From contig JACZVU010000004.1 in NCBI GenBank assembly GCA_022572485.1, forward strand, positions 1 through 43,429: DNA of 43,429 nt. Direction: 5' to 3'. A model generated the notes under the pieces. That model saw nothing but the letters and a program-made list of their open reading frames with translations, was not told the origin of the DNA and made no database searches. Source of the stretch: Myxococcales bacterium. GTDB lineage: Bacteria > Myxococcota_A > UBA9160 > SMWR01. The translations under genes were made by a program, and so were the position numbers. Below are positions 7,330 through 36,946 of this stretch, one piece after another (within the stretch, counting starts at the first letter, position 1; the number at the start of each line of letters is the position of its first letter).

Positions 7330-10300
7330 TCACGCAGCTCCGAGATTTTCGAGCAAATTTCGGGCCGCGGCGAAGAGTCGTGCGGGATCCCCTTTGGGTG
7401 CGCGCGCGTAGATCTTGCGGTCGGGCGCGACGCGCATCCCGGCCCCGGCTTGATGGAGCAGGTCGAGAAGCCGCTGCGGATCGACCTTGCTCTGATCCGC
7501 CGCGGTAAGCACGATTTCGCCGTTTGCGAGATCGATGGCCGCGATGCCAAGCCGGCGCGCGAGCGTCTTCAATCGGATTACCTCGAAGAGGTTCTCGGCC
7601 TCGTCGGGCAGTGATCCGTAGCGGTCGAGCAGCTCGTCTCGAATGCGGTCGATCTCGCCGTCGTCGCGGCAACTCGCGAGGCGCTTGTAGAGAACCAGGC
7701 GCTGGCTGACGGTGCTCACGTAGGACTCCGGCAGGCGCGCGGTCACGGGCAGCCGAATCTCTGGGTCGATCTCGGTCTCGTGGGGTTTTCCGCGCAGCTC
7801 GTCCATGATTTCTTCGAGCATCGCAAGGTAGGTCTCGTAGCCGACCGCCGCGAGACAGCCGCTTTGTTCAGGCCCGAGGAGATTCCCGGCACCGCGAATC
7901 TCGAGGTCCATGTTCGCAAGGCGGAAGCCGCTGCCGAGTTCACTGAGATCTTGGATTGTCTCGAGCCGCCGCCTCGCGTCGGAGGTGAGCGTGTCCTCTG
8001 AACCCGGGATCATCAGGTACGCGTAGGCGCGTTGCTTGCTTCGGCCTACACGCCCGCGCAGCTGGTAGATCTGCGCGAGACCGAGCACATCTGCTCGATT
8101 GATCAAGATGGTATTCGCCCGCGGATTGTCGATGCCGCTCTCGATGATCGTCGTACAGAGCAGCACATCCGCCTCGCCGTGCATGAAGCGAAGCATTCGA
8201 TCTTCTAGTTCGCGCTCTTTCATCTGTCCGTGCGCGACGATGATCTTGGCCTCGGGAACGACGCGGGCGAGCCGACTCTGCATTGCGCCGATCGTCTGCA
8301 CCCGGTTGTGGACGAAGAAAATTTGCCCACCCCGGCGCAGCTCTCGCAGGATGACCTCGCGAATCAGGGAATCCGACAAACGACATACCTGGGTGCGGAT
8401 GGCCAGGCGATCCGCGGGCGGCGTGTTGATCACCGACAGGTCGCGAATTCCGTTGAACGCCATCTGGAGGGTTCGCGGAATCGGTGTTGCGGTCAGCGTC
8501 AAGACGTCGATGTTCTTCTTGAGCTGTTTGATTCGCTCCTTGTGGGTGACGCCGAATCGGTGTTCTTCATCGATAACGAGCAGTCCGAGGTCTCGAAAGC
8601 GGACGTTCTTTTGCAGCAGGCGGTGGGTTCCAATCACGATGTCGATGGTCCCGTTCGCCAACCGCTCGATGACCGACCGGGCGTCCTTTGCGCTGCGAAA
8701 TCGGGAAAGCGATTCGATCTCTATCGGATGGCCCGCAAATCGCTCCTTGAAGGTTTCTTCGTGTTGTTGACAGAGAATCGTCGTTGGAACCAGGACGGCG
8801 ACCTGCTTGCCGTCCATCGCAACCCGGAAGGCCGCCCGCACGGCGACCTCGGTCTTGCCATAACCGACGTCTCCGCAGATGATCCGGTCCGTCGGCTTGG
8901 GACGCTGTAGATCGCTGAGCACGTCTTCGATTGCGGCGGCTTGGTCGGCAGTTTCTTCGAACGGAAAGGTCGCTTCGAATTCTTCGAGGTGACGATCACG
9001 CCCCGAAAACACGTGGCCCGGCGCGAGTTCTCGGGCCGCGTGAATCGAGAGTAGTTCGTGGGCCATGGCCCGCAGGCTCTTCTTGATGGAGTTTTTCGCC
9101 TTTTCCCAGCTGACACCGCCGAGTTTGTCGATGCGTGGGGTGTGGCCGTCCGATCCACCGTAGCGCTGGATCAGGCTCAGGCGATGCACGGGAACGAAGA
9201 GCCGGTCACCGTCGCGGTATTCGAGCCGAAGAAATTCTCCCCGGGTGACCCCAAGGTCGAGTTCGACCAGTCCACGATAGATGCCGATTCCGTGTTCGAC
9301 GTGGACGAGGTAGTCACCTTTCTCGAGTTGCGCGAGGTCTTCGATGCTCGCGCCATCGGGCCAATGCGTCCGCACCCTGCGGTGCTGGCGCGGGCCGAAG
9401 ATCTCCTCTTCTGTCAGAACGACCAGGAGTTCTGCCGGGAAGACGAATCCCTCCGAGAAATTGCACACGCGGATTTCGACGCGGCCTGGCGATGACCAGC
9501 GCGACGCGGTCCGGGGATTCTCGGCGATTCGAACTTCGAGTCCGTATTCGCTTAACAAATGGCGCAGGCGTTCCGCGCCGGAAAGAGAAGAGACGCAGAG
9601 CGTCGTCCGCCAAGCTGCATCACACCATTTTGCGAGCGCGTCGACGAGCGGCTGGAGCGCGCGATCGCTGCTGCGCGCTTTGATCAGCTCGCGGTGGAGG
9701 ATGTCGTGGCCGATGCAGCGAAGCGAAAGGTGCTCGCCTTCGGCCTCGGCGTCGACCACGTCGAGCCGCTCCAAGAAGATCGGCTTGCGCGCGAGCATCT
9801 CGCGCTCGAGTTCTTCGGGGGAGAGTGCCAGTGCGTTTGGTTCCGAGACGACCCGGCCGTTTTCTCTTGCGATTTGGTAATTCTCCTCCGCGTCCGACGC
9901 ATATCGCCGCATGCGGTCGCGGCCGGCTTCCGGGTCGTCGATGAGGATCAGCGTGTCGGCGGGAAGAAAGTCGAACACCGTCTCGACGGTGCGCTGGAGG
10001 AGCGGTGCGAGGGCTTCGGTGCCTGGCGGTATGTGGCCGCGCAGCAAAGAGTCGAGCAGCGCGTCGACCGCACGGTTTGAAACACCCTGTTCGGCGGCCA
10101 ATTCGCGAATTCGCCCGGACTGGTCGACGATCAGCGAACGGTTGATGAGCAGCTCGCGGGGGGGTGGCGCGACCAGGTGTGAGAGGGCATCTCGCGATCG
10201 CTGCGTGACTTCGTCGAATTCGCGAATCGACTCGATCTCGTCGCCCAACAGATCGATTCGAATCGGATGTGTGCGATGGGGTGGAAAGATGTCGAGAATG

Positions 10301-10875
10301 CCGCCTCGCACGGCGATCTCGCCCCGCTCTTCGACGAGAGGCATCCGCGAGTAGCCCGCGGCAACCAGGGTCGCGACAAGCGCGTCTCGGTCGATGGTCT
10401 GGCCGACTTCGAGGTGAACCGAACGGCTGCGCACGACTTCGCGCGCAGGCACCCGCAGCGCGAGCGCCGTCCAGGGCGCCACCGCGATGGGTGCGGGTTC
10501 GATCCGCGCATCCGGCTGCGCGCTCGCCAACCAGCGATAAAGGACGTCCATCCGCTGTGCGACCAGAAATGGTTGAGGGGAGAAGCGCTCGTAGGGATGC
10601 GTGTCGTGATCTGGATACGCGCGTACGCGCCCGCCCTCGGCGGGCTCTCCGAGCGCGGCGCAGAGATTTTGGACGAGCGCATCGCAGGCCTTGGCGTTCG
10701 GGGTGACAAAGAGCGCCGGCGCATCACCAAGCTGCGCAATGAGCTTCGCGCCAACGACGGCCGCTGCGCCGCCGCGCAAGCCCGCCAGGCGTACCGCACC
10801 ACTTCGCTCGGCGATGCGCCGAGCAACGCTGTCTAGATCTTCGTAGCGGGACTTGCTTCCCGCCGTCTCTGCCAT
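7330..10875 (-). CDS. mfd: Transcription-repair coupling factor
   Basis: Mfd removes RNA polymerase stalled at DNA lesions and recruits UvrA. The protein has about 1181 residues from ATG 10875, the normal size. In order it shows the UvrB-like N-terminal region and the RNA-polymerase-interacting module (YLVHVEHGIGIYRGL). Then come the superfamily-2 translocase motifs: Walker A GDVGYGKTE, Walker B DEEHRFG, TATPIPRTL, and motif VI GRVGRSKQRAYAYL. The C-terminal TRCF domain follows. The frame remains open to a TTG at 10944 (23 extra residues), but ATG 10875 gives the usual N-terminal length; neither has a strong ribosome site. It converges on the Kal-like gene with only 25 bp between them. Copy A of the 77-nt repeat lies in the upstream spacer. 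Confidence 0.97.
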   Translation of the reverse strand: MAETAGSKSRYEDLDSVARRIAERSGAVRLAGLRGGAAAVVGAKLIAQLGDAPALFVTPNAKACDALVQNLCAALGEPAEGGRVRAYPDHDTHPYERFSPQPFLVAQRMDVLYRWLASAQPDARIEPAPIAVAPWTALALRVPAREVVRSRSVHLEVGQTIDRDALVATLVAAGYSRMPLVEERGEIAVRGGILDIFPPHRTHPIRIDLLGDEIESIREFDEVTQRSRDALSHLVAPPPRELLINRSLIVDQSGRIRELAAEQGVSNRAVDALLDSLLRGHIPPGTEALAPLLQRTVETVFDFLPADTLILIDDPEAGRDRMRRYASDAEENYQIARENGRVVSEPNALALSPEELEREMLARKPIFLERLDVVDAEAEGEHLSLRCIGHDILHRELIKARSSDRALQPLVDALAKWCDAAWRTTLCVSSLSGAERLRHLLSEYGLEVRIAENPRTASRWSSPGRVEIRVCNFSEGFVFPAELLVVLTEEEIFGPRQHRRVRTHWPDGASIEDLAQLEKGDYLVHVEHGIGIYRGLVELDLGVTRGEFLRLEYRDGDRLFVPVHRLSLIQRYGGSDGHTPRIDKLGGVSWEKAKNSIKKSLRAMAHELLSIHAARELAPGHVFSGRDRHLEEFEATFPFEETADQAAAIEDVLSDLQRPKPTDRIICGDVGYGKTEVAVRAAFRVAMDGKQVAVLVPTTILCQQHEETFKERFAGHPIEIESLSRFRSAKDARSVIERLANGTIDIVIGTHRLLQKNVRFRDLGLLVIDEEHRFGVTHKERIKQLKKNIDVLTLTATPIPRTLQMAFNGIRDLSVINTPPADRLAIRTQVCRLSDSLIREVILRELRRGGQIFFVHNRVQTIGAMQSRLARVVPEAKIIVAHGQMKERELEDRMLRFMHGEADVLLCTTIIESGIDNPRANTILINRADVLGLAQIYQLRGRVGRSKQRAYAYLMIPGSEDTLTSDARRRLETIQDLSELGSGFRLANMDLEIRGAGNLLGPEQSGCLAAVGYETYLAMLEEIMDELRGKPHETEIDPEIRLPVTARLPESYVSTVSQRLVLYKRLASCRDDGEIDRIRDELLDRYGSLPDEAENLFEVIRLKTLARRLGIAAIDLANGEIVLTAADQSKVDPQRLLDLLHQAGAGMRVAPDRKIYARAPKGDPARLFAAARNLLENLGAA

Positions 10876-11001
10876 ACGGGTCGCGGGGCCCTCCGAGCGC
10901 TCCAGGCGTGCGCTGCACGCAGAAATCCCCGCCGCCCCAATCAAACGGACGGGGGGTGCGAGACCTCGCGGAGAGTGTAGCGGGTCGTCGGTCCGGCTCG
11001 G

Positions 11002-11078
11002 CTAGAGGGTCCCGCAGAATACCGTGACACCCGTTCCCGGCGGGGATCGTTGTAACCCTATTCCGCGATCCCCTCTAG
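11002..11078 (+). repeat. 77-nt dispersed structured repeat, copy A
   Basis: This element begins CTAGAGGG and ends CCCTCTAG, an 8-bp perfect terminal inverted repeat. It matches 29644-29720 over exactly 77 nt without gaps at 67 positions, in the same orientation. The interior is partly self-complementary: positions 12-19 pair with 59-66 with one mismatch, and 23-29 pair with 49-55 imperfectly, so the whole element can fold into one long hairpin. A competing hairpin pairs GGGGATCG (positions 41-48) with CGATCCCC (65-72). Copy A lies between the divergent mfd and DUF2059-like genes, 46 nt before the latter's start. I do not recognise it as a known riboswitch, REP element or MITE. Confidence 0.85.
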
Positions 11079-11124
11079 TCTTGGGGTTTGCGGTATCCAG
11101 TGCCCGAGAAGAGCGGAGGTGACT

Positions 11125-11394
11125 GTGCGAATCCGAAAAATCGGTGCAGTGATCTTGGCGGCCGGCGTATTGATTCAGTCTGCGAAGAGCGGCGCGGAGC
11201 TCACCGAGTCGAAACAGGAACTGATCCGGGAGATGCTCGCCTTCTACCGCACGCCGGTCGGGCGCAAGAGCATCGAGGTGATGCCATCGTTGGTGCAAGA
11301 GGCGGGGCGGGGCGTCGACGAGGCGGTGCAGCCCCTTGCGGTCGGCCTCATCCAGGAGATTGTCGCTGAGGAGCGCGCGAAGCTGGCCGATTGA
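11125..11394 (+). CDS. Small secreted DUF2059-like protein
   Basis: This 89-residue protein has an N-terminal signal sequence (RIRK, then IGAVILAAGVLIQSAKSG). The short domain has the pattern MLAFYRTPVGRKSIEVMPSLVQEA. That pattern of FYxTPxGRKxxExxP is typical of DUF2059 proteins, whose function is unknown; most are longer, at about 150 residues or more, so this is a minimal or shortened member. I start it at GTG 11125 because CGGAGG (11113-11118) lies 6 nt upstream; a GTG at 11119 is too close. It is alone between repeat copy A and rplC and is probably exported to the periplasm. Confidence 0.7.
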   Translation: MRIRKIGAVILAAGVLIQSAKSGAELTESKQELIREMLAFYRTPVGRKSIEVMPSLVQEAGRGVDEAVQPLAVGLIQEIVAEERAKLAD

Positions 11395-20547: not shown

Positions 20548-22425
20548 TCACGACTTGCCGCTCGCGTAGCGGCCCAGCGCGGTCAGCGGAAATACGATTC
20601 GGTAGATGTGGTAGTTGATGTAGAAGTCACCCGGGAAACCGGTTCCGGTGTATTGCTCTTCGTCCCAGCTGCCGTCTTCGCGCTGGTTGTCGATGAGCCA
20701 CGCGATGCCGCACTGCACGGCGGGCGAGCGCTGCTTGGCGGCCAGCAGCGCCATCAGCGCCCAAGCCGTCTGCGACGCGGTGGATTTGCCGCGCCCGGCA
20801 AGCGCGGGGTTGTCGTAGGAGCGCAGGTCTTCGCCCCAACCGCCGTCGGCGTTTTGATGATCTTCGAGCCACTTCACGGCGCGCCGCATCGCGAACCCTT
20901 CGGGCGCTTCGCCGAGCGCGGCGAGCGCCGGCAATGCGGCACCGGTGCCGTAGATGTAATTCGCCCCCCAGCGTCCGAACCACGAACCATCGGCTTGCTG
21001 CTCGGCGAGCAGCCGTTGGCGCCCACGTTCGGTTCGCATGTCGTTGCCGTACCCCTCGTGGGCGAGCATTTCGAGCACATGAGCGGTGACGTCCGCGCTC
21101 GGCGGGTCAATGACCTCGCCAAAGTCGCAGAAGGGGATCTTGCCGCATAGCGTCTGTGTGTTGTCGGCGTCGAAAGCCGCCCAGTCGCCGGTCTTGCTCT
21201 GCATCCCGAGCGTCCAGGCCGTTGCGCGTGCGATTACGTCGTTGACGCGCGCGAGGTCCGGATGCGCGACCTTGCGCAGCGCAAGGATGACTTCGGCGTT
21301 GTCGTCGATGTCCGGGTAGTTGTCGTTTTCAAACTCGAACGCCCAGCCGCTTGGCTCGAGATCCGGGCGCTGCACCGCCCAGTCGCCGACCGTGCGCACT
21401 TCCTGACCGATCAACCAGTCCGCGGCGCGAATCATCGCGGAGGAGTCGGGCGCGAGCCCCGAGTCGCCGAGCGCGATGATCGCTAGCGCAGTGTCCCAGA
21501 TGGGTGACTGGCAGGCCTCGATGCGGCGCGCGCCGTCCTCGATGATCGTAAAGCCCTCCAAGCCCGCAAGCGCCTTTGCGATCACGGGGTGGTCCATCGC
21601 GTAACCCAACACGTGGAGCGCCATCACCGAGTACACCCAGGGCGGTTGGATCCCACCCCAGCAGCCGTCGGCCTCCTGGCGCCGCACGATCCACTCGACG
21701 GCGCGCCGGTAGGCATGTTGGCGCAGTCGCCGATTGGGTCGGCGCTCGTAGAGCTTGAGCACGCGGTCGAGCTGATGGAAGCCTCCCTGCCAGGTCGCGA
21801 TCGGATGTCGCGGCGGCGACGTGTAGGTGCGCAGCTCGTTGATCCCGAAACCAATCGATCGGACTGGCTTGTGGGCCGCGACGACCGTGAGCGGTACGAT
21901 GGTCTGTCGTGCCCAACAGCCGAAGTCGTAGATGTTCAGCGGGAACCAGCTCGGGAGCAGGATCATCTCGGGCGGCATCGTGGGCAGATCGTCCCACGAC
22001 CAGAGTCCGAACAGCGACATCCACAGCCGCGTGAAGACGCGCGTGTGCTCGAGGCCGCCGAGATCGCGGATCAACTCCGAGGCGCGTCGCATGTGGGCGG
22101 CGTCCGCGGGGTCGCCGGCGAGCCGTAGCGCGACGTAGGCCTCGCTGGTGGTCGAGATCTCCGGCGGCCCTTCGAAGTAGTTCGCCCAGGAGCCGTCACT
22201 GCGCTGTTGGCTGCGGATCCATTTCGCGCTCTGCTCGGTCTCTTTTTCGCCGCGGATACCGAGGAACTGGCGCAGCATCAGATCTTCTGCGTCGATTGAG
22301 ACGTTGGTGTCGAGCGCGCCCTTCCACCAGCCGGCTTCGTCCTGAAGTGACAACAGGTGCTGCTGCGCGCGCGCGATGGCTTCGAAGGTCTTTTGTTCCG
22401 TATCGGTGATGACTTGTGAGACCAT
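20548..22425 (-). CDS. shc: Squalene-hopene cyclase
   Basis: Shc (HpnF) cyclises squalene to hopene and hopanol at the inner face of the membrane. The 625-residue protein has the normal length. The catalytic DXDD motif reads DIDD in NYPDIDDNAEVILALRKV at about residue 373. Repeated QW motifs are visible, for example QQRSDGSWANYFEG near the N-terminus, and near the C-terminus QNADGGWGEDLRSYDNP and QREDGSWDEEQYTGTGFPG. The WQGGF and FPLNIYDFGCWARQT segments are typical of the family. The start is ATG 22425. It lies 50 bp after hpnE and just before hpnG. Confidence 0.96.
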   Translation of the reverse strand: MVSQVITDTEQKTFEAIARAQQHLLSLQDEAGWWKGALDTNVSIDAEDLMLRQFLGIRGEKETEQSAKWIRSQQRSDGSWANYFEGPPEISTTSEAYVALRLAGDPADAAHMRRASELIRDLGGLEHTRVFTRLWMSLFGLWSWDDLPTMPPEMILLPSWFPLNIYDFGCWARQTIVPLTVVAAHKPVRSIGFGINELRTYTSPPRHPIATWQGGFHQLDRVLKLYERRPNRRLRQHAYRRAVEWIVRRQEADGCWGGIQPPWVYSVMALHVLGYAMDHPVIAKALAGLEGFTIIEDGARRIEACQSPIWDTALAIIALGDSGLAPDSSAMIRAADWLIGQEVRTVGDWAVQRPDLEPSGWAFEFENDNYPDIDDNAEVILALRKVAHPDLARVNDVIARATAWTLGMQSKTGDWAAFDADNTQTLCGKIPFCDFGEVIDPPSADVTAHVLEMLAHEGYGNDMRTERGRQRLLAEQQADGSWFGRWGANYIYGTGAALPALAALGEAPEGFAMRRAVKWLEDHQNADGGWGEDLRSYDNPALAGRGKSTASQTAWALMALLAAKQRSPAVQCGIAWLIDNQREDGSWDEEQYTGTGFPGDFYINYHIYRIVFPLTALGRYASGKS

Positions 22426-26740: not shown

Positions 26741-27618
26741 GCGATTCCCATCCAGACCTTCGCGGCGATCACGACGCGGCGAGGCTTCGAGAGACGCAGC
26801 GGTTGCTCGAAGCACGGGAACTTGCGCTCGATCAGCTCGTCGAGCAGCGCCTGGTAGATGCGGCCCATCGCGGTGGCCGGTCGCAAGGATCGACGGTCCT
26901 CGTTCGGCAGCAATTGCTCGGCGCGCTCGTAATAAGAGGTCGTGCGCTTGGCGTAGAAGCTCAACATCAATTGCAGTTCGTCGGTCCTACGGCCTGCGAG
27001 GAGGCTTTCGGTCGAGACCCCGAAGCGCTCGAGTTCGTCTTTCGGCAAGTAGATGCGGCCGGTGCTCGCGTCATCACCCACGTCGCGAAGCACATTGGTC
27101 AGTTGTACCGCGATGCCGAGTGTCTCGGCAAATTCGAGCGACTGGGGGTTTTTGAAGCCGAGGATGCGCACCACGAGCAGGCCAACGGTGGATGCGACCC
27201 GATAGCAGTACAGTCGCAGGTCGTCGAAGGTCTCGATCGGCTCGTCGCCGAGGTCGAATTCGACACCGGCCAGAAGATCGAGAAAGACGTGTTCTGGGAG
27301 CCGGAAGCGCTCGATGGCGTCGCTCAGAGCGACGCCGACCGCATGCTGCGCCTTGCCGCGGTAGGCGCCGTCGAGTTCTTCGCGCCAACGCGCGAGCAAG
27401 GCCGTCCGATTACCCGCGATTTCCGGGTCGTCCACGATGTCGTCGGCGAGTCGGCAAAACGCGTAGATGGCGTGGAGCGCGTTGCGTTTGGGTTTTGGCA
27501 GCATCCAAAACGCCGAGGCGAACGACGAGCCGCTGCGGCGCGTGATTTCCGCACAATCCCGGTAGGCTTCGGCGATGCTGGGCTCCGGTTCGGACGGCAT
27601 GTCCGGGAGCCGGCTCAC
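26737..27618 (-). CDS. hpnD: Presqualene diphosphate synthase HpnD
   Basis: HpnD condenses two farnesyl diphosphates to presqualene diphosphate. The protein has 293 residues from GTG 27618. It has the squalene/phytoene synthase signatures FASAFWMLPKPKRNALHAIY, the first aspartate-rich motif CRLADDIVDD, YRVASTVGLLVVRILGF, and the second motif QLTNVLRDVGDDASTGRIYL. The start is a choice: GTG 27618 overlaps the dxs stop (GTGA), while ATG 27600 would be six residues shorter; neither has a clear ribosome site, so translational coupling is likely. Another open frame on this strand continues upstream through dxs but is only a shadow. The protein carries both intact aspartate motifs, unlike HpnC in this cluster. 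Confidence 0.93.
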   Translation of the reverse strand: MSRLPDMPSEPEPSIAEAYRDCAEITRRSGSSFASAFWMLPKPKRNALHAIYAFCRLADDIVDDPEIAGNRTALLARWREELDGAYRGKAQHAVGVALSDAIERFRLPEHVFLDLLAGVEFDLGDEPIETFDDLRLYCYRVASTVGLLVVRILGFKNPQSLEFAETLGIAVQLTNVLRDVGDDASTGRIYLPKDELERFGVSTESLLAGRRTDELQLMLSFYAKRTTSYYERAEQLLPNEDRRSLRPATAMGRIYQALLDELIERKFPCFEQPLRLSKPRRVVIAAKVWMGIA

Positions 27619-29423
27619 GACTTCTTGAGCCAGTCCGCCGTTCGAGCCGCGATCGACTCGGGATCGATCCCTCCAGCGGTCCACTGGTCGTCGGTCTCGC
27701 CGTGTTCTACGAAGCGATCGGGGAGCCCGCAGACGAGGACACGCGCCTCGGGGGCCAGCACCGCAAGTCGTTCGAGTACGGCGCTGCCAAAGCCGCCGGC
27801 CGCCATGTGATCTTCGATCGTAACGATTCGCAAACAGCGCTCGGCAGCGGAGACCAGTGCTTGATCGTCTAGAGGCTTGACGAAGCGAGCGTCGACGACC
27901 CGCGCCGATATGCCCTGCTCCGCGAGAAGATCCGCCGCCTGCTCGGCGGCTTGGACCGCTTTGCCGATCGCGAAGAGCGCGACGTCCACGCCATCGCGCA
28001 ACAACTCCGCGCTGCCGATCGGAACGGGCTTTGGCTCGGGGTCGAGTGCGACACCCATCGCGGCTCCACGTGGGAAACGCACCGCGAACGGGCGGCCTGA
28101 TTCGATCGCGGTCGCGAGAAGATGCTGGAGTTGGTTTTCGTCGCGTGGCGCGGCGATGATGAGATTGGGAATCATGCGCAGGTAGCCGAGGTCGAGCACG
28201 CCGTGGTGGGTGGGGCCGTCGGTGCCGATGAGTCCCGCGCGATCGATCGCAAACGTGACCGGCAGATTCTGCAGCGCGACATCGTGGACGATTTGATCGA
28301 AGGCTCGCTGGAGGAAGGTCGAGTAGATCGCGCAGACCGGGCGCATGCCCTCGGTTGCCATGCCCGCCGCGAAGGTCACGGCGTGCTGTTCGGCGATGCC
28401 CGCGTCGTAGACGCGGTCGGGATGCGCGCGCTCGAAACGGTCGAGGCCCGTCCCGTCGGGCATTGCGGCGGTGATCGCCACGACCCGCGGGTCGCGGTCG
28501 GCGATCGCGATCAGCGCATCCGCGAACACCTGGGTCCACGACGGCGGGCTCGATTTGCCCGAAGCCGGCAAGTGCTTGCCGGTTTCGGGATCGAAGGGCT
28601 TGCAGGCGTGCCAGCCGTAGGGGTCCGCCTCGGCGGGCGCGAAGCCGTGGCCCTTCTGGGTAATCGCGTGAACGACCACCGGCCCGGAGGTGTCGCGCAG
28701 CTGCTCGAGCGCGGGCAAGAGTTCGTCGAGGTCGTGGCCATCGATTGGGCCGATATATTGAAAACCAAGTGATTCGAGGTACTTGCGCGCATCGCCGGTC
28801 TTCTTCAGGCCGCCGACACTCGGCGCGATCGACATCCCGTTGTCGTTGTAGACGACGCGCGTGTCGACTCCGAGATGCCCCGCGTGGTTGAAGGCCTCGA
28901 AGGACATGCCCGCGGTCGCCGCGCCGTCTCCGATGATCGCGACGCTGCGGCCCTCCCGGCCCTGTCGGCGCAGCCCCTCGCTGACGCCGAGGCTCGCCGA
29001 GACCGAGGTTCCGGCGTGTCCCGCGCCAAAGACGTCGTATTCGCTCTCGCAGCGGCGCAGGAATCCGCTCGGCCCGTCGGCTTTCTTGACCTTGATGAGC
29101 TGTTCGCGGCGACCTGTCAGCGCCTTGTGGCCGTAGGCTTGGTGGCCGACATCCCACACCAGGCGATCCCTGGGTGTATCAAATATCCAATGAAGTCCAA
29201 CGGTTAGCTCGACAGTTCCGAGGCTGCCGGCGAAGTGTCCGCCGCGCACGGCGCCGAGTTCGATCAATTCCTGGCGCAACTCGTCGCAGACGTCCCGCAG
29301 GGAATCCTTCGGAACCTGTCTGAGATCGGCCGGCTCTCGAATCTTCGCGAGCAGGCCTTCAGGCGGGTCGTGGGTGCCGTCGTTGATCGCGCGCACTTCT
29401 TTGGGACGATCCCCCAGCAGCAT
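27615..29423 (-). CDS. dxs: 1-deoxy-D-xylulose-5-phosphate synthase
   Basis: Dxs is a thiamine-diphosphate enzyme joining pyruvate and glyceraldehyde-3-phosphate in the first step of the MEP isoprenoid pathway. The 602-residue protein is slightly shorter than the usual 620-640. Motifs include GGHFAGSLGTVELTVGLH, WDVGHQAYGHKALTGR, the ThDP motif IIGDGAATAGMSFEAFNHAG and YNDNGMSIAPSVGG. Next are YDAGIAEQHAVTFAAGMA with the active-site glutamate, GTDGPTHHGVLDL and VRFPRG. The start ATG 29423 has no strong ribosome site; GTG 29396 is possible. It heads the hopanoid cluster, with a palindrome about 60 bp upstream, so precursor supply and hopanoid synthesis may be expressed together. Confidence 0.96.
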   Translation of the reverse strand: MLLGDRPKEVRAINDGTHDPPEGLLAKIREPADLRQVPKDSLRDVCDELRQELIELGAVRGGHFAGSLGTVELTVGLHWIFDTPRDRLVWDVGHQAYGHKALTGRREQLIKVKKADGPSGFLRRCESEYDVFGAGHAGTSVSASLGVSEGLRRQGREGRSVAIIGDGAATAGMSFEAFNHAGHLGVDTRVVYNDNGMSIAPSVGGLKKTGDARKYLESLGFQYIGPIDGHDLDELLPALEQLRDTSGPVVVHAITQKGHGFAPAEADPYGWHACKPFDPETGKHLPASGKSSPPSWTQVFADALIAIADRDPRVVAITAAMPDGTGLDRFERAHPDRVYDAGIAEQHAVTFAAGMATEGMRPVCAIYSTFLQRAFDQIVHDVALQNLPVTFAIDRAGLIGTDGPTHHGVLDLGYLRMIPNLIIAAPRDENQLQHLLATAIESGRPFAVRFPRGAAMGVALDPEPKPVPIGSAELLRDGVDVALFAIGKAVQAAEQAADLLAEQGISARVVDARFVKPLDDQALVSAAERCLRIVTIEDHMAAGGFGSAVLERLAVLAPEARVLVCGLPDRFVEHGETDDQWTAGGIDPESIAARTADWLKKS

Positions 29424-29643: not shown

Positions 29644-29720
29644 CTAGAGAGCCCCGCAGAATACCGTGACACCGGCTCCCGAAGAGGATCGGTGTAACCC
29701 GATTCCGCGATCCTCTCTAG
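29644..29720 (+). repeat. 77-nt dispersed structured repeat, copy B
   Basis: This copy starts CTAGAGAG and ends CTCTCTAG, again an 8-bp perfect terminal inverted repeat. Compared with copy A (11002-11078) it has 10 substitutions and no indels. Positions 7, 42 and 71 changed together from G, G, C to A, A, T. Position 71 is the possible partner of both 7 (outer stem) and 42 (inner stem), so both foldings stay paired. The inner stem is longer here: AGAGGATCG with CGATCCTCT. The element lies between divergently transcribed dxs and the small zinc-ribbon gene, 267 bp before the latter. Confidence 0.85.
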
Positions 29721-29987
29721 CCCCCTCTCGCCCCGCTAAGGAGCAGGGCGATCAGAAGGTTTGATCGGAGGGTTTTCTCGGTTCGCCAGGGTCATCCTTT
29801 CATCCGACTGTGTCTCGTCCGTCAAGTGACGGGCGTGTTGCGTGTTTTTTCAAAGCCGTGACCGGATCCGTCACGCGCCGACGCTCCAATAGGTCACACC
29901 CAATCAATAGGTCACACTCCATTCGTGACCGTGAGCCGGGCAGACGAACACCCAAACCGAAAGAAATCGAGAGGAGGATCCAATCCT

Positions 29988-30251
29988 ATGAACGCAATCG
30001 CTGCAATCGGAAGCATCCGTGCCAGTTTCAACAGATGGGCGCGTTGCTGCATCTGCGGCTTCAGCGAGGTTCAAACCGACGAGGCCATCGATCAGAGCGT
30101 CCTCTTTCTCGCCGAATGCCCGCGGTGCGAGCACCGCTGGACGTCGCAGGAGGCGATCGCAGTCGGTTCGACGGCAACGCCGCCGCTCGTGACGATTCGC
30201 TTCCAGCGGGTGCCCGCCCGGTTCTCGCGGGAGGTTCAACCGGCGGCATGA
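29988..30251 (+). CDS. Small zinc-ribbon-like protein
   Basis: This 87-residue protein has two cysteine pairs, WARCCICGF and ECPRCEH, spaced about 22 residues apart, consistent with a zinc ribbon. There is no signal peptide or membrane segment. I do not recognise the family. ATG 29988 follows GAGAGGAGGA (about 29966-29975), a strong if slightly distant ribosome site; the frame is open 21 codons further upstream. It ends 12 bp before the first ArsA-like gene and is probably cotranscribed, so it may be an accessory factor of that pair. The zinc-binding role is inferred from the cysteines alone. Confidence 0.6.
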   Translation: MNAIAAIGSIRASFNRWARCCICGFSEVQTDEAIDQSVLFLAECPRCEHRWTSQEAIAVGSTATPPLVTIRFQRVPARFSREVQPAA

Positions 30252-30263
30252 TATCGTCGGGCC

Positions 30264-31454
30264 GTGAGGCTCGTGCTCTATACTGGCAAGGGTGGCGTCG
30301 GAAAGACGACGATCGCTGCGGCCACGGCGGTCTGTGCAGCCGAGCGCGGACGACGGGTGCTCGTTGTTTCCGCCGACGCTGCGCACAGTCTGGGGGATGT
30401 CTTCGAGCGCCGGCTCGGTCCCGACCCGATCGCGATCGCTCCGCGTCTCGACGCGAGTGAGGTGGATCCTCGTGCGGAGATGCACAACCACTGGGGGCGT
30501 ATCCACGATTACCTGGTCGCGATGTTCCACTACCAGGGCATTGAAGAGGTCATCGCCGAGGAGTTGGCGCAGCTCCCGGGGGCCGAAGAGATCACGACGC
30601 TGCTCGCGATCGAAAAGCTCGCGGCCTCGGGCCGCTACGACCTGTTGATTGTCGACTGTGCGCCAACCGATTCTGCACTCCGGCTGGTGACGCTTCCCGA
30701 AGTCGCGCACCGGGCGCTTCGCCTGCTGCTCCCCACCATGCAGGCGATCACCCGCGTCGGAACCCCCATTGCGCAGAAGATCGTGTCGATCCCCCTTCCC
30801 CGTTCGGAGGTATTCCGCGACGCGAAGACGTTGATCTACGACAAGCTCACGACCTTGCGCAAACGCATCACCGATTCACAGACGAGTGTGCGGATCGTCG
30901 TGACGCCCGAGCGCATGGTGATCAACGAGGCGCGGCGTGCCTACACCGAGTTTGCGTTGTTCGAGGTTCCCTGCGATGCCGTCGTGATGAATCGCCTCCT
31001 GCCCGACGAAGCGGTCCACGAGCATTTCTTTCAACATTGGGGCCGCCTGCAGGAAGAGCGCTGTCGTGAAGTGGAGGAAGCATTCGCACCGCTTCCAATG
31101 CTGCGCGCACCGCTGCTCGCGGACCAGGTCACGGGCTGCGAGCGACTCGCGGAACTCGGGCGGCATCTGTTTGAGAAGTCGGAGCCAGGCGACGTGTTCA
31201 GCAAGTCCGCACGCGTGCGCTTCGGGCGCGACGAGACGGGCTACTTCGCGCAGGTTCCGCTCCCCAATGCGAGCGGAGACGACCTCGACGTCGTTGTCGT
31301 CGACGATGAACTGATCATCACTGTGGGTGCGCGCCGCCGCTTGTTGAGGCTCCCGCGTCGGATGACACGCCGCCGCGTGCTGAGTGCGAAACTCGATGCA
31401 GAAAAGTTGACTGTGCATTTCGGTACGACGGCCCACCCAGGGGAGGATCGGTGA
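30264..31454 (+). CDS. ArsA/Get3-family ATPase 1 with C-terminal HSP20-like domain
   Basis: This 396-residue protein is a SIMIBI-class ATPase. It has the deviant P-loop YTGKGGVGKTTIAAATAV (residues 6-23), the switch I segment SADAAHSLGDVF and the switch II segment LLIVDCAPTDSALRLVTLPE. A MNRLLP motif follows near position 249, as in Get3/ArsA relatives. The last about 75 residues, from SKSARVRFGRDETGYFAQVP, form a beta-rich small-heat-shock-like domain, as in ArsA_HSP20 proteins and Get3d-type members. ArsA metal-binding cysteines are not evident and no arsenic genes are nearby, so arsenite export is unlikely; a client-targeting or chaperone role is more plausible. GTG 30264 is the start. Its stop overlaps the second ATPase. 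Confidence 0.88.
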   Translation: MRLVLYTGKGGVGKTTIAAATAVCAAERGRRVLVVSADAAHSLGDVFERRLGPDPIAIAPRLDASEVDPRAEMHNHWGRIHDYLVAMFHYQGIEEVIAEELAQLPGAEEITTLLAIEKLAASGRYDLLIVDCAPTDSALRLVTLPEVAHRALRLLLPTMQAITRVGTPIAQKIVSIPLPRSEVFRDAKTLIYDKLTTLRKRITDSQTSVRIVVTPERMVINEARRAYTEFALFEVPCDAVVMNRLLPDEAVHEHFFQHWGRLQEERCREVEEAFAPLPMLRAPLLADQVTGCERLAELGRHLFEKSEPGDVFSKSARVRFGRDETGYFAQVPLPNASGDDLDVVVVDDELIITVGARRRLLRLPRRMTRRRVLSAKLDAEKLTVHFGTTAHPGEDR

Positions 31455-32611
31455 GGGTCCTGCTCCATACCGGAAAGGGAGGTGTCGGGAAAACAAGTCT
31501 GTCGGCCGCGACTGCGCTGGGTGCCGCGCAGCACGGTCACCGGGTGTTTCTGCTCTCGACGGATTCTGCTCACAGTCTTGGTGATGCGCTCGGCGAAGCG
31601 GTCGGGCCTGCGCCCATCGAGATCACCGAGGGCCTGGTCGCACAAGAAGTGGATGTGCTGGCCGAACTCGACCGCTCCTGGTCGAACATCCAACGTTGGC
31701 TGCGCGAGCTGTTGCGATCGGATACCGATGACATGATCGCCGAAGAACTGTTGGTCTTTCCGGGCATGGAAGAGCTCGTGGCGCTCCGCGCCATCCGCGA
31801 GGTGGAGGCGACCGGCGAGTACGACGTTTGCGTGGTGGACTGCGCGCCGACAGGTTCGATGCTTCGCATGCTGCGCTTTCCCGACGTGCTGCGAATCTTC
31901 ATGGAGAATTTCTTCGACTGGAAGCGCAAGGCCGCCAGAGCAATTCGCCCCGTTGCCGCGACGTTCGGTGTCGATGTCTATGTTCCGGGTGACGATGTCT
32001 TTGCGGATTTCGAGCGCCTCTATCGCGAAGTCGAAGACGTCCGTTCGATCCTGTTCGACACGGACCGTACGAGTGCTCGTCTGGTCGTGAATCCCGCTCG
32101 AGTCGTCATCGATGAGACCCGGCGGTCGTTTGCCTACCTGAGCCTCTACGGGGTTGCAACGGACGCGGTGTTGGTGAATCGGGTGCTGCCACCGGAAGCC
32201 GCGACGGGCTATTTCGCGCGCTGGGCGCAGCGCGAACGCACCGAACTCGAGGAGATCGAGCAGTCGTTTCCCGTGCCACAATTTCGCATCTCGCTGCATC
32301 CCACCGAGCCCATCGGGGTGGAAGCTCTGCGCGAACTTGCAGCCGAAACCTACGGAGATCGGGATCCCGCAGCGCTCTTCACCCGCGCTCGTCCGATTCG
32401 ACTCACCAAACGAGACGGAGCGACCGTGATGGAAATTGATCTCGTTCACGCGTCGACCGACGAACTCGATCTCGCAATTCACGGAGATCAACTCTTCGTG
32501 CGGGTGCGCGATGCACGGCGTCGCATCGCGCTGCCGGATTCCGTCGCCGGCCGGTCGATTGCCGCGGCGAAGCTGAACGAAGGTGTTCTCGAGGTGACCT
32601 TCGAGGCGTAA
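31451..32611 (+). CDS. ArsA/Get3-family ATPase 2 with C-terminal HSP20-like domain
   Basis: This 386-residue paralogue of the preceding gene starts with GTG 31451 inside its stop (GTGA). Motifs are the P-loop HTGKGGVGKTSLSAATAL, switch I STDSAHSLGDAL, switch II VVDCAPTGSMLRMLRFPD (closer to Get3's APTGHTLR) and VNRVLPPEA. The C-terminal HSP20-like segment begins near KRDGATVMEIDLVHASTDEL. The two proteins are clearly diverged, so this is an old tandem duplication rather than a recent copy, and the pair may act as a heterodimer, mimicking the two halves of ArsA. Get3's zinc CxxC is not seen. Partners are unknown. Confidence 0.88.
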   Translation: MRVLLHTGKGGVGKTSLSAATALGAAQHGHRVFLLSTDSAHSLGDALGEAVGPAPIEITEGLVAQEVDVLAELDRSWSNIQRWLRELLRSDTDDMIAEELLVFPGMEELVALRAIREVEATGEYDVCVVDCAPTGSMLRMLRFPDVLRIFMENFFDWKRKAARAIRPVAATFGVDVYVPGDDVFADFERLYREVEDVRSILFDTDRTSARLVVNPARVVIDETRRSFAYLSLYGVATDAVLVNRVLPPEAATGYFARWAQRERTELEEIEQSFPVPQFRISLHPTEPIGVEALRELAAETYGDRDPAALFTRARPIRLTKRDGATVMEIDLVHASTDELDLAIHGDQLFVRVRDARRRIALPDSVAGRSIAAAKLNEGVLEVTFEA

Positions 32612-32969: not shown

Positions 32970-34625
32970 GTGGGCGGCGCGAAGGTGAATTGGATCGATC
33001 AACATGCCGCTGGCATGCGCCGCGTGATCTGGATCGGGCTGTTGCTGCTTCTGGTTGCCGCGCCCGCCCAGGCCAAGCGCATCGTTCAGATTCGTGTAGG
33101 CAATCACCCGACCTTCACCCGCCTCGTCTTCGAGATGGATGTATTTACGGGTTATCAGGTGGAGCGCCGAGTCGGAACCGACGGCACGGAGCAGATCACC
33201 GTGACCCTCGATGCCTCGACGCCCTCGCGTGAGATCAAATCCAAGAGCGTCGGGATCGACTCCGTCAGTGTCGTCGAGCGTGCTGGCCAGGCGATTGCGC
33301 AGATCCGGCTGCGAAAGTCCGGCTTCCCGATGAAAGAGATGATTCTCTCGAATCCACCGCGCATCGTGCTCGACTTCGTGCACTCGGCCGCTGTGGTCAC
33401 GCAAGACTCCCACGCGAAGTCGACTCCGGTCGAGCCTCCCGTTCGCGAAGAGCCAGCGCCCGACGTCGTTCGGCCCGATCCGAAACCCGTGGTCACCAAG
33501 GCCATCGTGCCCGAGCCCGCCGTCGAACCCGAGCCGGTCGTCGCTAAAATCGTTCAGCCGGAGCCCGCCATTGAACCCGAGCCTGAACCAGTCGTCACCG
33601 AAGTCGTTCAGCCGGAGCCCGTCGTTGCCGAAGCTGTCGTGCCCGAATCCGAGTTCGCGGCCGACGAGATCGCGATACTCGATCCGACGATGCCGCCAGA
33701 CGACGCGGAACCTGCGCTCTCCGATGCTGCGGAGCGCCACGCCGCGCTTCGCGCTGCAACTCCCGGCGTCCACAAGCGGGATGATCTGAAACCTTCGAGT
33801 GACCCCACAGCGGAATTGACATCCGAGCCGATCGCCGATGTGGCGGATGCGGATTTTGATGCTCCACAGGGCTCTTCCACGCGAGCTTTGACGCCGTCGA
33901 CCGGTGAGGCGCAGCGCCGGATACCCGCTCCGCCCGACGTTACGCGGCGGATCGAAAAGCCCAAGCCCGCTGATGGGGGCCTGCCCTTCGATAGGGTTAC
34001 GATGGCGGGGATCGCCGTGGGCGTGCTGATCGTCCTCGTCGTGGCCGTCCGACTCTTTCGCAAGAAATCGCTCTCGAACGATCTCGACGACGCGCCCAGC
34101 GATGGCACTGTGGATTTTGACCGCGGAACGCGTGATCGGATTCCCGCCGAGGGACTTGCGATAAACGATTCGTCCACCGGTGGCCCTGCGCCGCAGGTGG
34201 AAGAGCAGAACACCGCAGCCTATTCGCTGAGTGAAGTGGCAGCGAATAGGAGCGAACCGGAAACCGGATTGTACAACGAGGATTCTGAGGGAGAGAAACC
34301 GATGGACATGGAAACCACCAATCTGCCGACTGAACGCAAGGATTTCGTCGCGCCGCCCGCCGCCGCCGTGAGTAGTGGTGGCAGCGACATGTCTCAGCTC
34401 GTTCAGGAACTCGCGAGTCGCATCACAAGCCTCGAAACCCGGTTCGATGAGGTCAACGACAGCCGCGAGCGGCTGGAGCGTCAGGTTGCCGCCCAGAGCG
34501 AGGAGCTTCGCGTGCAGCGCGCCGCAATCGCACGGACGCAGCGAGCGCTCCGGAGCCTGAGCCGATCCGAAGAAGACCAGGCCACCGAGCCCGCTTTGCG
34601 CGAATCCAGCCAACCGACCCGGTAG
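32970..34625 (+). CDS. AMIN-domain membrane protein with proline-rich and coiled-coil regions
   Basis: This protein of up to 551 residues carries a signal sequence at about residues 16-36 (RRVIWIGLLLLLVAAPAQA) and then an AMIN-like beta domain. The AMIN part runs from IVQIRVGNHPTFTRLVFEMD to NPPRIVLDFVHSAAVV. A proline/glutamate-rich stretch with EPEPVV repeats (about 160-225) follows. A single membrane helix is at about 345-364 (AGIAVGVLIVLVVAVRLF), and a C-terminal coiled coil at about 473-530. AMIN domains bind peptidoglycan and occur in AmiC and PilQ. The start is uncertain: GTG 32970, GTG 32985, or ATG 33015, which would begin the signal peptide exactly. With the ExeA- and GspB-like genes downstream it suggests an envelope-spanning assembly. 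Confidence 0.75.
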   Translation: MGGAKVNWIDQHAAGMRRVIWIGLLLLLVAAPAQAKRIVQIRVGNHPTFTRLVFEMDVFTGYQVERRVGTDGTEQITVTLDASTPSREIKSKSVGIDSVSVVERAGQAIAQIRLRKSGFPMKEMILSNPPRIVLDFVHSAAVVTQDSHAKSTPVEPPVREEPAPDVVRPDPKPVVTKAIVPEPAVEPEPVVAKIVQPEPAIEPEPEPVVTEVVQPEPVVAEAVVPESEFAADEIAILDPTMPPDDAEPALSDAAERHAALRAATPGVHKRDDLKPSSDPTAELTSEPIADVADADFDAPQGSSTRALTPSTGEAQRRIPAPPDVTRRIEKPKPADGGLPFDRVTMAGIAVGVLIVLVVAVRLFRKKSLSNDLDDAPSDGTVDFDRGTRDRIPAEGLAINDSSTGGPAPQVEEQNTAAYSLSEVAANRSEPETGLYNEDSEGEKPMDMETTNLPTERKDFVAPPAAAVSSGGSDMSQLVQELASRITSLETRFDEVNDSRERLERQVAAQSEELRVQRAAIARTQRALRSLSRSEEDQATEPALRESSQPTR

Positions 34626-34799: not shown

Positions 34800-35861
34800 A
34801 TGTATACCCGGTTTTACGGGCTGAACGAGAAGCCCTTTTCGCTTACCCCCGACCCTCGCTTCTTGTTTCTCTCAGGGTCCCATCAAGAAGCGCTCGCCCA
34901 TCTGCTCTACGGCATCGAGCAGGGTGAAGGGTTCATCGCCATCACCGGAGAGGTCGGAACCGGAAAGACGACTCTCTGTCGCGCTCTGCTGCAACGCCTT
35001 GGCCCAGGTACGGAGGTTGCGCTCGTCTTCAACCCGATCCTGTTGGGCGAAGAATTGTTGCGCACGGTCAGCATTGAATTCGGTTTGGTCACGGAGGGAT
35101 ACTCGCGCGCGGATCTCAACAACCAGCTCAACCGGTTTCTGCTTCAGACGAGTCGCGAGGGGCGACGGGCACTTTTGATCATAGACGAATCGCAGAACCT
35201 CGATCCCGCTACGCTCGAGGAGATTCGCCTGCTCTCCAATCTCGAGACTTCATCGTCGAAGTTGATCCAGATCGTGTTCTTCGGGCAACCGGAACTCGAC
35301 GAGATGTTGGACTCTCGAGAGCTTCGTCAGCTACGGCAGCGGATTACGGTGCGCTGGACGCTCGCGCCGTTGAACGTCGCTGAAACGCGAGACTACGTTC
35401 GGCATCGACTCAAGGTCGCAGCCGGCAAAGAGTGCGATCTCTTTACCGACAAGGCACTTCGGGAGATTCAGCGTCGAACGGGCGGAATTCCGCGTTTGAT
35501 CAACGTTCTCTGTGATCGCGCGATGCTGGCGGGCTACGCGGCCGGCGTATCGGTGATGAAGCCGAATTTGATCAACCAAGCTGCTCGCGAGATCCTGAGC
35601 GCGCGATCACGTCGCCGCCCATGGCGATCCGTATTTCGCCGCGCGTTTCCAGTCGCGATCTTGCTTACGGTCAGCGTTGGCGTACTCAGCTGGTTCGGTA
35701 TCACGGCCAAAAGCCCCGAGCCGATCGAGCGCGAATCCCCAATGTTGTCCGCTGTCGCAGTCGTACCACCGTCTGAAGTGGTGATCGGAGAATTTTTGCC
35801 GCGAGTCGAAACGCTCGAAGTCGAGGTTGAAGACGCGGTGACGAATCGGGGATTTGAGTGA
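34800..35861 (+). CDS. ExeA/GspA-like AAA ATPase
   Basis: This 353-residue protein begins MYTRFYGLNEKPFSLTPDPR, the diagnostic N-terminus of ExeA/GspA-type ATPases. The Walker A motif is GEVGTGKTT (about 50-58) and the Walker B segment ALLIIDESQNL (about 123-133). The sensor-like GGIPRLINVLCDRAMLAGYA is in its usual position. A membrane helix follows at about 282-300 (FPVAILLTVSVGVLSWFGI), then a short periplasmic tail of about 50 residues. ExeA with ExeB (GspAB) helps place secretins across peptidoglycan in type II secretion; a separate ExeA peptidoglycan-binding domain is not evident here. The stop overlaps the GspB-like gene by 4 bp. Confidence 0.88.
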   Translation: MYTRFYGLNEKPFSLTPDPRFLFLSGSHQEALAHLLYGIEQGEGFIAITGEVGTGKTTLCRALLQRLGPGTEVALVFNPILLGEELLRTVSIEFGLVTEGYSRADLNNQLNRFLLQTSREGRRALLIIDESQNLDPATLEEIRLLSNLETSSSKLIQIVFFGQPELDEMLDSRELRQLRQRITVRWTLAPLNVAETRDYVRHRLKVAAGKECDLFTDKALREIQRRTGGIPRLINVLCDRAMLAGYAAGVSVMKPNLINQAAREILSARSRRRPWRSVFRRAFPVAILLTVSVGVLSWFGITAKSPEPIERESPMLSAVAVVPPSEVVIGEFLPRVETLEVEVEDAVTNRGFE

Positions 35862-36946
35862 GTACGATCCTCAAGGCGCTCCAGCGTTTGGAAGACGAGA
35901 AGAGCGCGAACGTCGAGCACTCCCTCGATGAGCAGATCGTCGCTCAGCGACCACCGCCCGCCCCCGATCGCCGCGGGCTGCGGATCGGAGCCATCGCGAT
36001 CGGCGGACTCGCGGTTGCCGTCGCGGCATTTTTCTTCTGGTTCACCCGAAAGGATCCTGTCGCGGAGGTGGCGATGGAATTGCCGCCTCCCGCGGTGGCG
36101 CCTGTGGTCGCGGCCGTGCAGGAGGTGGCCGCCGAAAAACCCCGTCGCAAACCCTTGGCTCGCCCGGCGCCGGCCGCGCGCGCGCAACAAGATTTGCCTG
36201 AGGTCGAAGTCGCCTCGATTATCGAAGTCGTCAAACGCCTCGACGCGCAGCCCGCCGATACAGGCGAGTCTGCCGCGTCGTCGAAGCACGCTGCACCAAC
36301 GGCCAAAGCCGATGCCGCGCAGCCCGCGCAACGGCCGAGTGCGCGTAAACCCGACACCCAGGTTGCGCACGAGCCCGCACAACCGCGACCTGCACAAAAG
36401 CAGATCGCCAACGCCAAGCTTCCTGCGATCCAGATTTCAGAAAATTCGGTACCCGAGAAGCCGGTTCCGGCACCACCCGCACCTGCCAAGACCGTAGCGG
36501 TTGTCGAGAAGCCGGTTCCGGCACCACCCGCACCTGCCAAGACCGTAGCGGTTGTCGAGAAGCCAGTTCCGGCACCACCCGCACCTGCCAAGACCGTAGC
36601 GGTTGTCGAGAAGCCAGTTCCGGCACCGCTCGCACCTGTCGAAATCGTAGCGGTCGCCGAGAAGCCGGCTCCGACCGCGGCGCCCACGTTGATTCAGGCC
36701 TCGATTCAAGAGCTCGAGAAAAAAGTCGTCCAGCGCGCCAAGCTCCCCGCGCTCAGCGTCGAGAAAACGATCTGGCATCCCGATGCCGATCGGCGCGTTG
36801 CCATCGTGAAGCTGATCGGCGCTGAAGGGGCTCTGCGCCTGAAAGAGGGCGACGCCGTCGGCCCCCTCGTTGTCGAAGTCATCAAACCCGGCAGCGTCCT
36901 CTTCAACCACGATGGCATCGAAATCCAATACAACGTGGGCGGTTGA
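35858..36946 (+). CDS. GspB-like protein with tandem repeats
   Basis: This 362-residue inner-membrane protein begins STILKALQRLEDEK, the usual GspB/ExeB start, with a membrane helix at about residues 43-62 (IGAIAIGGLAVAVAAFFFWF). A long proline/alanine-rich linker contains four 17-residue repeats of the type EKPVPAPPAPAKTVAVV (about 200-267). The C-terminal domain, from LPALSVEKTIWHPD to GSVLFNHDGIEIQYNV, is GspB/HofP-like and periplasmic. GTG 35858 overlaps the ExeA-like stop (GTGA). The pair would help assemble a secretin; the remaining type II secretion genes are not in the window. Confidence 0.87.
   Translation: MSTILKALQRLEDEKSANVEHSLDEQIVAQRPPPAPDRRGLRIGAIAIGGLAVAVAAFFFWFTRKDPVAEVAMELPPPAVAPVVAAVQEVAAEKPRRKPLARPAPAARAQQDLPEVEVASIIEVVKRLDAQPADTGESAASSKHAAPTAKADAAQPAQRPSARKPDTQVAHEPAQPRPAQKQIANAKLPAIQISENSVPEKPVPAPPAPAKTVAVVEKPVPAPPAPAKTVAVVEKPVPAPPAPAKTVAVVEKPVPAPLAPVEIVAVAEKPAPTAAPTLIQASIQELEKKVVQRAKLPALSVEKTIWHPDADRRVAIVKLIGAEGALRLKEGDAVGPLVVEVIKPGSVLFNHDGIEIQYNVGG
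36455..36658 (+). repeat. Four 51-bp tandem repeats in the gspB-like gene
   Basis: Units lie at 36455-36505, 36506-36556, 36557-36607 and 36608-36658. The first two are identical, the third differs by one base and the fourth is diverged. The 51-bp unit keeps frame and encodes a 17-residue proline/alanine-rich repeat in the linker. The near identity points to recent expansion or repeat homogenisation. Confidence 0.92.

Follow-up and report, generated by a model that had tools for sequence, protein, structure and literature searches.

A 77-nucleotide palindromic unit with CTAG ends occurs twice in a Myxococcales contig and has the look of a small mobile repeat

What is the 77-nt sequence that occurs twice, in two intergenic gaps, in a 43,429-nt stretch of a Myxococcales contig (hereafter the window, meaning the whole of the DNA analysed)? 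The preliminary description had reported two copies of exactly 77 nt in the same orientation, identical at 67 positions and free of indels. Ungapped alignment reproduces these figures exactly, and a repeat search together with the sequence itself bears out the separation of 18.6 kb and the CTAG at both outer ends of both copies:

11002..11078, plus strand: unit copy 1, the 77-nt palindromic unit
29644..29720, plus strand: unit copy 2, 67/77 identical to copy 1, no indels

The repeat search extends the match by one common G (11001/29643), and when 60-nt flanks on either side of both copies are compared, similarity stops at the CTAG ends, as the earlier claim of a discrete unit had it. Given its base composition, the window would be expected to hold about 4e-19 pairs of this kind by chance. 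Both copies are extragenic (2/2), and all but one or two of the reading frames in each are interrupted by stops. We conclude that the unit is a real, discrete, structured repeat.

That the whole unit folds as one long imperfect hairpin had likewise been proposed, and comparison with shuffled sequences supports it on both strands, for RNA and for DNA. As RNA, the plus strand folds at -32.6 (copy 1) and -33.2 kcal/mol (copy 2), with z scores of -4.2 and -6.0, and the minus strand at -40.6 and -39.6 kcal/mol (z of -5.0 and -4.7); in each of the four tests (two copies by two strands), 0/200 shuffles did as well. As DNA, z scores run from -3.1 to -5.1, with 1, 0, 0 and 0 shuffles per 200 as good. 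Each strand forms one long hairpin with internal loops, the eight outer pairs of which are unbroken in both copies. The minus strand is the stronger folder in both, and two positions that are mismatched on the plus strand become G-U pairs on the minus strand. Within the unit, two conserved arms enclose a variable middle, and the right half can also form a hairpin by itself:

11002..11031, plus strand: left arm of copy 1, with a CTAG end; 28/30 identical to copy 2
11032..11050, plus strand: variable middle of copy 1; 13/19 identical to copy 2
11051..11078, plus strand: right arm of copy 1, with a CTAG end; 26/28 identical to copy 2
11042..11073, plus strand: right-half hairpin of copy 1; 8-bp stem formed by 11042-11049 and 11066-11073, 16-nt loop
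29684..29715, plus strand: right-half hairpin of copy 2; 8 pairs as in copy 1, one of them changed on both sides, and a ninth outer pair possible

The ten differences between the copies cluster in the middle. Left and right arms match at 22/30 positions in each copy, which means that the mismatches between the arms have mostly been kept from copy to copy. The stem of the right half (8 pairs in copy 1, 9 in copy 2) is equalled by 2 and 1 per 1000 shuffles; no significant stem arises within the left half, where shuffles do as well in 871 and 234 cases per 1000.

One pair of the long hairpin, columns 7-71, has changed on both sides between the copies, from G-C to A-T. In the half hairpin the partner of column 71 is column 42, and since column 42 has changed too, three positions appear to have changed together, a reading made after looking. 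Pair counts from two sequences carry no statistical weight, for 243 and 240 per 500 shuffles reach them. A better test of fold retention is the random-change trial, in which ten changes were made with the number of transitions matched. On the minus strand a fold as good was retained in 56 and 44 per 3000 mutants, and on the plus strand in 128 and 163 per 3000. The hairpin has survived its ten differences better than most random sets of ten changes would allow.

These results bear on the idea that a palindromic spacer segment was simply duplicated once and locally, without belonging to an active family. Just two copies are known, 18.6 kb apart and alike in orientation, which would suit such an event, but the ends are exact in both places, the flanks are dissimilar and the fold has been kept through the differences, and we regard a duplication of this sort as very unlikely.

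The genes on either side of the two copies are as follows:

7330..10944, minus strand: mfd, by its Pfam domains; TTG start at 10944, first in-frame ATG at 10875
11119..11394, plus strand: 91-aa DUF2059 ORF; start 40 nt past copy 1
27615..29423, minus strand: dxs, by its Pfam domains; start 220 nt from copy 2
29925..30251, plus strand: 108-aa ORF without a Pfam match; in-frame ATG at 29988, two ArsA ATPase ORFs next

Both copies do lie between divergent genes, as first described: copy 1 between mfd and the DUF2059 ORF, and copy 2 between dxs and the 108-aa ORF. The window otherwise resembles an ordinary bacterial chromosome, with ATP synthase subunits, mfd, squalene-hopene cyclase, dxs and others. 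The distance to the minus-strand gene start is 57 or 126 nt for copy 1 (mfd) against 220 nt for copy 2 (dxs), and that to the start on the right is 40 nt against at least 204 nt; distances that differ in this way between copies argue against a fixed leader or operator. A scan for sigma-70-like promoters, weak for such organisms, found none in either spacer. A single terminator-like site turned up, on the minus strand at 29930-29910; copy 2 is about 190 nt away, and with 0.7 such sites expected, one does not exceed chance.

The unit might be a small structured RNA, a cis-regulatory leader or an sRNA, that occurs twice and whose hairpin acts when transcribed, for example 5′ of the DUF2059 gene. 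Strong folding on both strands, a structure kept through ten differences and the end of copy 1 at 40 nt ahead of a start codon all speak for such an RNA. However, the position relative to genes differs between the copies, the best-folding minus strand faces mfd and dxs at the unequal distances just given, and the promoter scan was empty. Rfam, which the preliminary description had named as a place to look, gave no match in the window at the gathering threshold, and around copy 1 there was none even at E values as high as 10. A known Rfam family was rejected for want of any match in the window, and a structured RNA of whatever kind seems to us unlikely, if still worth bearing in mind. Alternatively, a protein with a nucleoid, chromosome-organising or regulatory role might bind the unit as a long palindromic DNA site that the mfd and dxs intergenic regions have in common. 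The occurrence of a palindromic unit with conserved arms in two divergent intergenic regions is consistent with a site of this type, but 77 nt with inter-arm mismatches mostly kept is long and odd for an operator, and there is no third site in 43 kb; we consider a binding site decidedly unlikely.

A discrete unit that is present in two unrelated places, has inverted arms and a variable middle, holds no gene and is extragenic has the look of small non-autonomous mobile repeats. Judging from the sequence, we lean toward the view that the unit belongs with the short, non-autonomous mobile repeats, of which REPINs and MITEs are examples, and is confined to a single lineage. Such repeats are known from many bacteria, and the unit is most likely a new lineage-specific member of that known kind; it is probably not a new kind of thing. 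Of the three identities originally offered for it, the REP/MITE-like one fares best by anatomy, whereas the binding site and the structured RNA keep lower odds. We infer from this anatomy that the unit may be mobile, may have reached a high copy number and may be served by an enzyme.

A REPIN or BIME is an inverted pair of REP sequences, thought to be moved by a RAYT (TnpA-REP). According to one report (PMC3116915), REPINs have conserved ends and a less conserved, hairpin-capable spacer with compensatory changes, their doublet spacings peak at 71 and 110 bp, and a hairpin and a 'clover' fold are proposed as alternatives. The unit resembles REPINs and BIMEs in its inverted arms, its variable middle, its long-hairpin and in part its half-hairpin folds and its extragenic position, and its 77 nt is near the two doublet spacings. 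The tag is different. The unit ends in CTAG, and both GTAG and CGTC are absent from both copies on both strands, whereas REP families, according to a second report (PMC3733652), mostly carry GTAG or CGTC, some being degenerate at the second and third positions. Stem-loops in the arms, as REPs and REPINs have them, are found in the right half of the unit (2 and 1 per 1000 shuffles as good) but not in the left (871 and 234 per 1000). A GTAG- or CGTC-tagged REP was rejected, neither tag being present in either copy, and because the tag fails we do not file the unit as a REP. In a third report (PMC8266576), one TnpA-REP still cleaved when the tag was mutated to CTAG, though at a reduced level.

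With MITEs the unit shares its short length, its terminal inverted repeats and its want of coding capacity, but it differs in that nearly all of it is inverted repeat. MITEPsy1, according to PMC3189936, is a MITE shown to move and possibly related to IS5, with a CTAG or YTAA target and a 4-nt duplication. CTAG stands at both borders of the unit as in that target, but the MITEPsy1 ends printed there are, by eye, unlike those of the unit. With regard to target duplication, the CTAG at both ends of the unit is palindromic and may belong to the element, and we do not firmly call the unit a MITE.

We also weighed an integron attC-like recombination site. The attC sites are imperfect single-strand hairpins with strand asymmetry, and their boxes follow the consensus GTTRRRY / RYYYAAC. 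The unit is similar to them in length, in its imperfect hairpin and in its strand asymmetry, but neither GTTRRRY nor RYYYAAC, and so no R-box motif, occurs on either strand of either copy, and the copies are single units amid ordinary chromosomal genes. With both boxes absent an attC site was rejected, and we put its likelihood close to nil.

If the unit is a mobile repeat, we suspect the following. Its two inverted arms of about 30 nt, with CTAG at their outer ends, around a variable middle of about 19 nt would form a long hairpin, or a half hairpin, when a strand is single during replication or transcription, and a transposase encoded elsewhere in the genome would have copied the unit into extragenic sites. 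Two types of enzyme could do this: (i) a RAYT-like HUH enzyme acting on single-stranded hairpins, for which CTAG would be the inverted tag of each arm; or (ii) a DDE enzyme of the IS5/IS630 type acting on double strands at CTAG/TA, for which CTAG would be the duplicated target. Elements of the IS630 type prefer the TA of a CTAG. Because CTAG reads the same on both strands, inverted tags and direct target duplication look alike in the sequence, and we prefer neither enzyme. A bolder proposal, which we hold to be doubtful, is a CTAG-tagged class of palindromic mobile repeat. Its tag would be palindromic and its arms possibly equivalent substrates, both the long and the half hairpin would be kept by coordinated changes at three positions, and a candidate enzyme would move it in a sparsely sampled lineage close to bacteria that bear the label Deltaproteobacteria or Myxococcota.

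Several facts stand against a mobile repeat: just two copies are known, GTAG and CGTC are missing, a Pfam scan (E 0.001) of 37 ORFs of the window showed neither a transposase nor a RAYT, and a strict core pattern of the unit was absent from the genome and viral contigs searched. Within the window, the copies' own reverse complements aside, the next best ungapped match reaches 39/77, and lone arms elsewhere match at best 16/22 (degenerate arm) or 20/30 (full arms). When a covariance model was run on the window without filters, 45 matches passed E 10. Four are the two copies on both strands; the remainder score 18.4 bits or less, and none is convincing. The best of these, at 22054-22119 on the plus strand (18.4 bits, E 0.017), falls in the squalene-hopene cyclase ORF and is probably due to chance.

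Beyond the window, a strict core pattern, validated by its recovery of both window copies, was found 0 times in genome_contigs (84,980 species) and 0 times in the IMG/VR viral contigs; being strict, it would miss diverged relatives or lone arms in genomes. This absence fits restriction to a narrow lineage and says nothing on close relatives; the unit seems not to be widespread. Single-arm, outer-frame and right-arm patterns likewise occurred 0 times in viral contigs, and an 18-mer of the unit turned up in 4 viral stretches with surroundings unlike the unit. Copy 1 had no match among plasmids and phages. Copy 2 had two partial matches among plasmids, at E 0.2 (Croceicoccus and Halorussus): the former was rejected, lying inside an open frame and having neither the unit's ends nor a match to the model, and the latter overlaps an annotated gene. 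A weak test for gene tails running into a copy, with 7 of the 12 frame translations joined as a query, matched none of 589 candidate proteins at E 10.

Relatives were sought through dxs. Among the 120 relatives listed of 7999, 30 are 85-99% identical and mostly jgi-labelled, and the named ones among the same 120, at about 70%, are Deltaproteobacteria (P0037, P0078, P0091) and Myxococcota (P0070) bacteria. A tree was made of the window's dxs, 8 of these 120 and 29 loci out of 80 from genome_contigs. It places the window and its 8 relatives together, and a branch of 0.67 changes per column (support 100/100) separates them from the 29 rows of other bacteria. The genome_contigs scan by dxs had reached at least 80 loci, at 43-50% identity. 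Genome groups from five such loci (G001, G002, G003, G004 and G007), whose listed genomes differ in the centre alone, lacked a close dxs at 1e-150 (0/198, 0/59, 0/59); at 1e-120 dxs was found in 56/99 in each of two scans, with 55% the best identity. Protein scans of viral contigs gave one dxs locus, at 49% identity, and no mfd. With the covariance model at E 0.01 and stricter filters, 0/297 genomes matched in a dxs-reached group and 1/199 in another, both groups outside the window's lineage; the single match (G438, 29 bits) lies in GC-rich sequence, lacks the conserved core and was judged to be chance. Genome samples from outside the window's lineage thus show little.

If the mobile reading is confirmed, the known REPIN/MITE repeats would gain a family with an unusual end, and an uncharacterised transposase would be indicated. 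Among the papers listed in a literature search, none has a title or abstract opening on such repeats in Myxococcota, which is no proof of their absence from print. The matter concerns mainly workers on small bacterial repeats, and its reach is modest unless the genome shows a large CTAG-ended family.

Some other features of the window deserve mention. Upstream of the 108-aa ORF that precedes the ArsA genes there are, by eye, an imperfect palindrome at 29858-29874, GTGACCGGATCCGTCAC, and a direct repeat, CAATAGGTCACAC, at 29887-29899 and 29905-29917; together (29858-29917) they look operator-like. The two adjacent ArsA-type ATPase ORFs span 30264-32611, with an ArsA_HSP20 domain in each. Three tandem degenerate repeats of about 50 nt occupy 33476-33627 within the ORF 32970-34625, and a 51-nt tandem repeat at 36447-36701 (102-nt reference, four overlapping copies in 51-nt steps, 67-100% identity) sits inside a 362-aa ORF without a Pfam match, 35858-36946.
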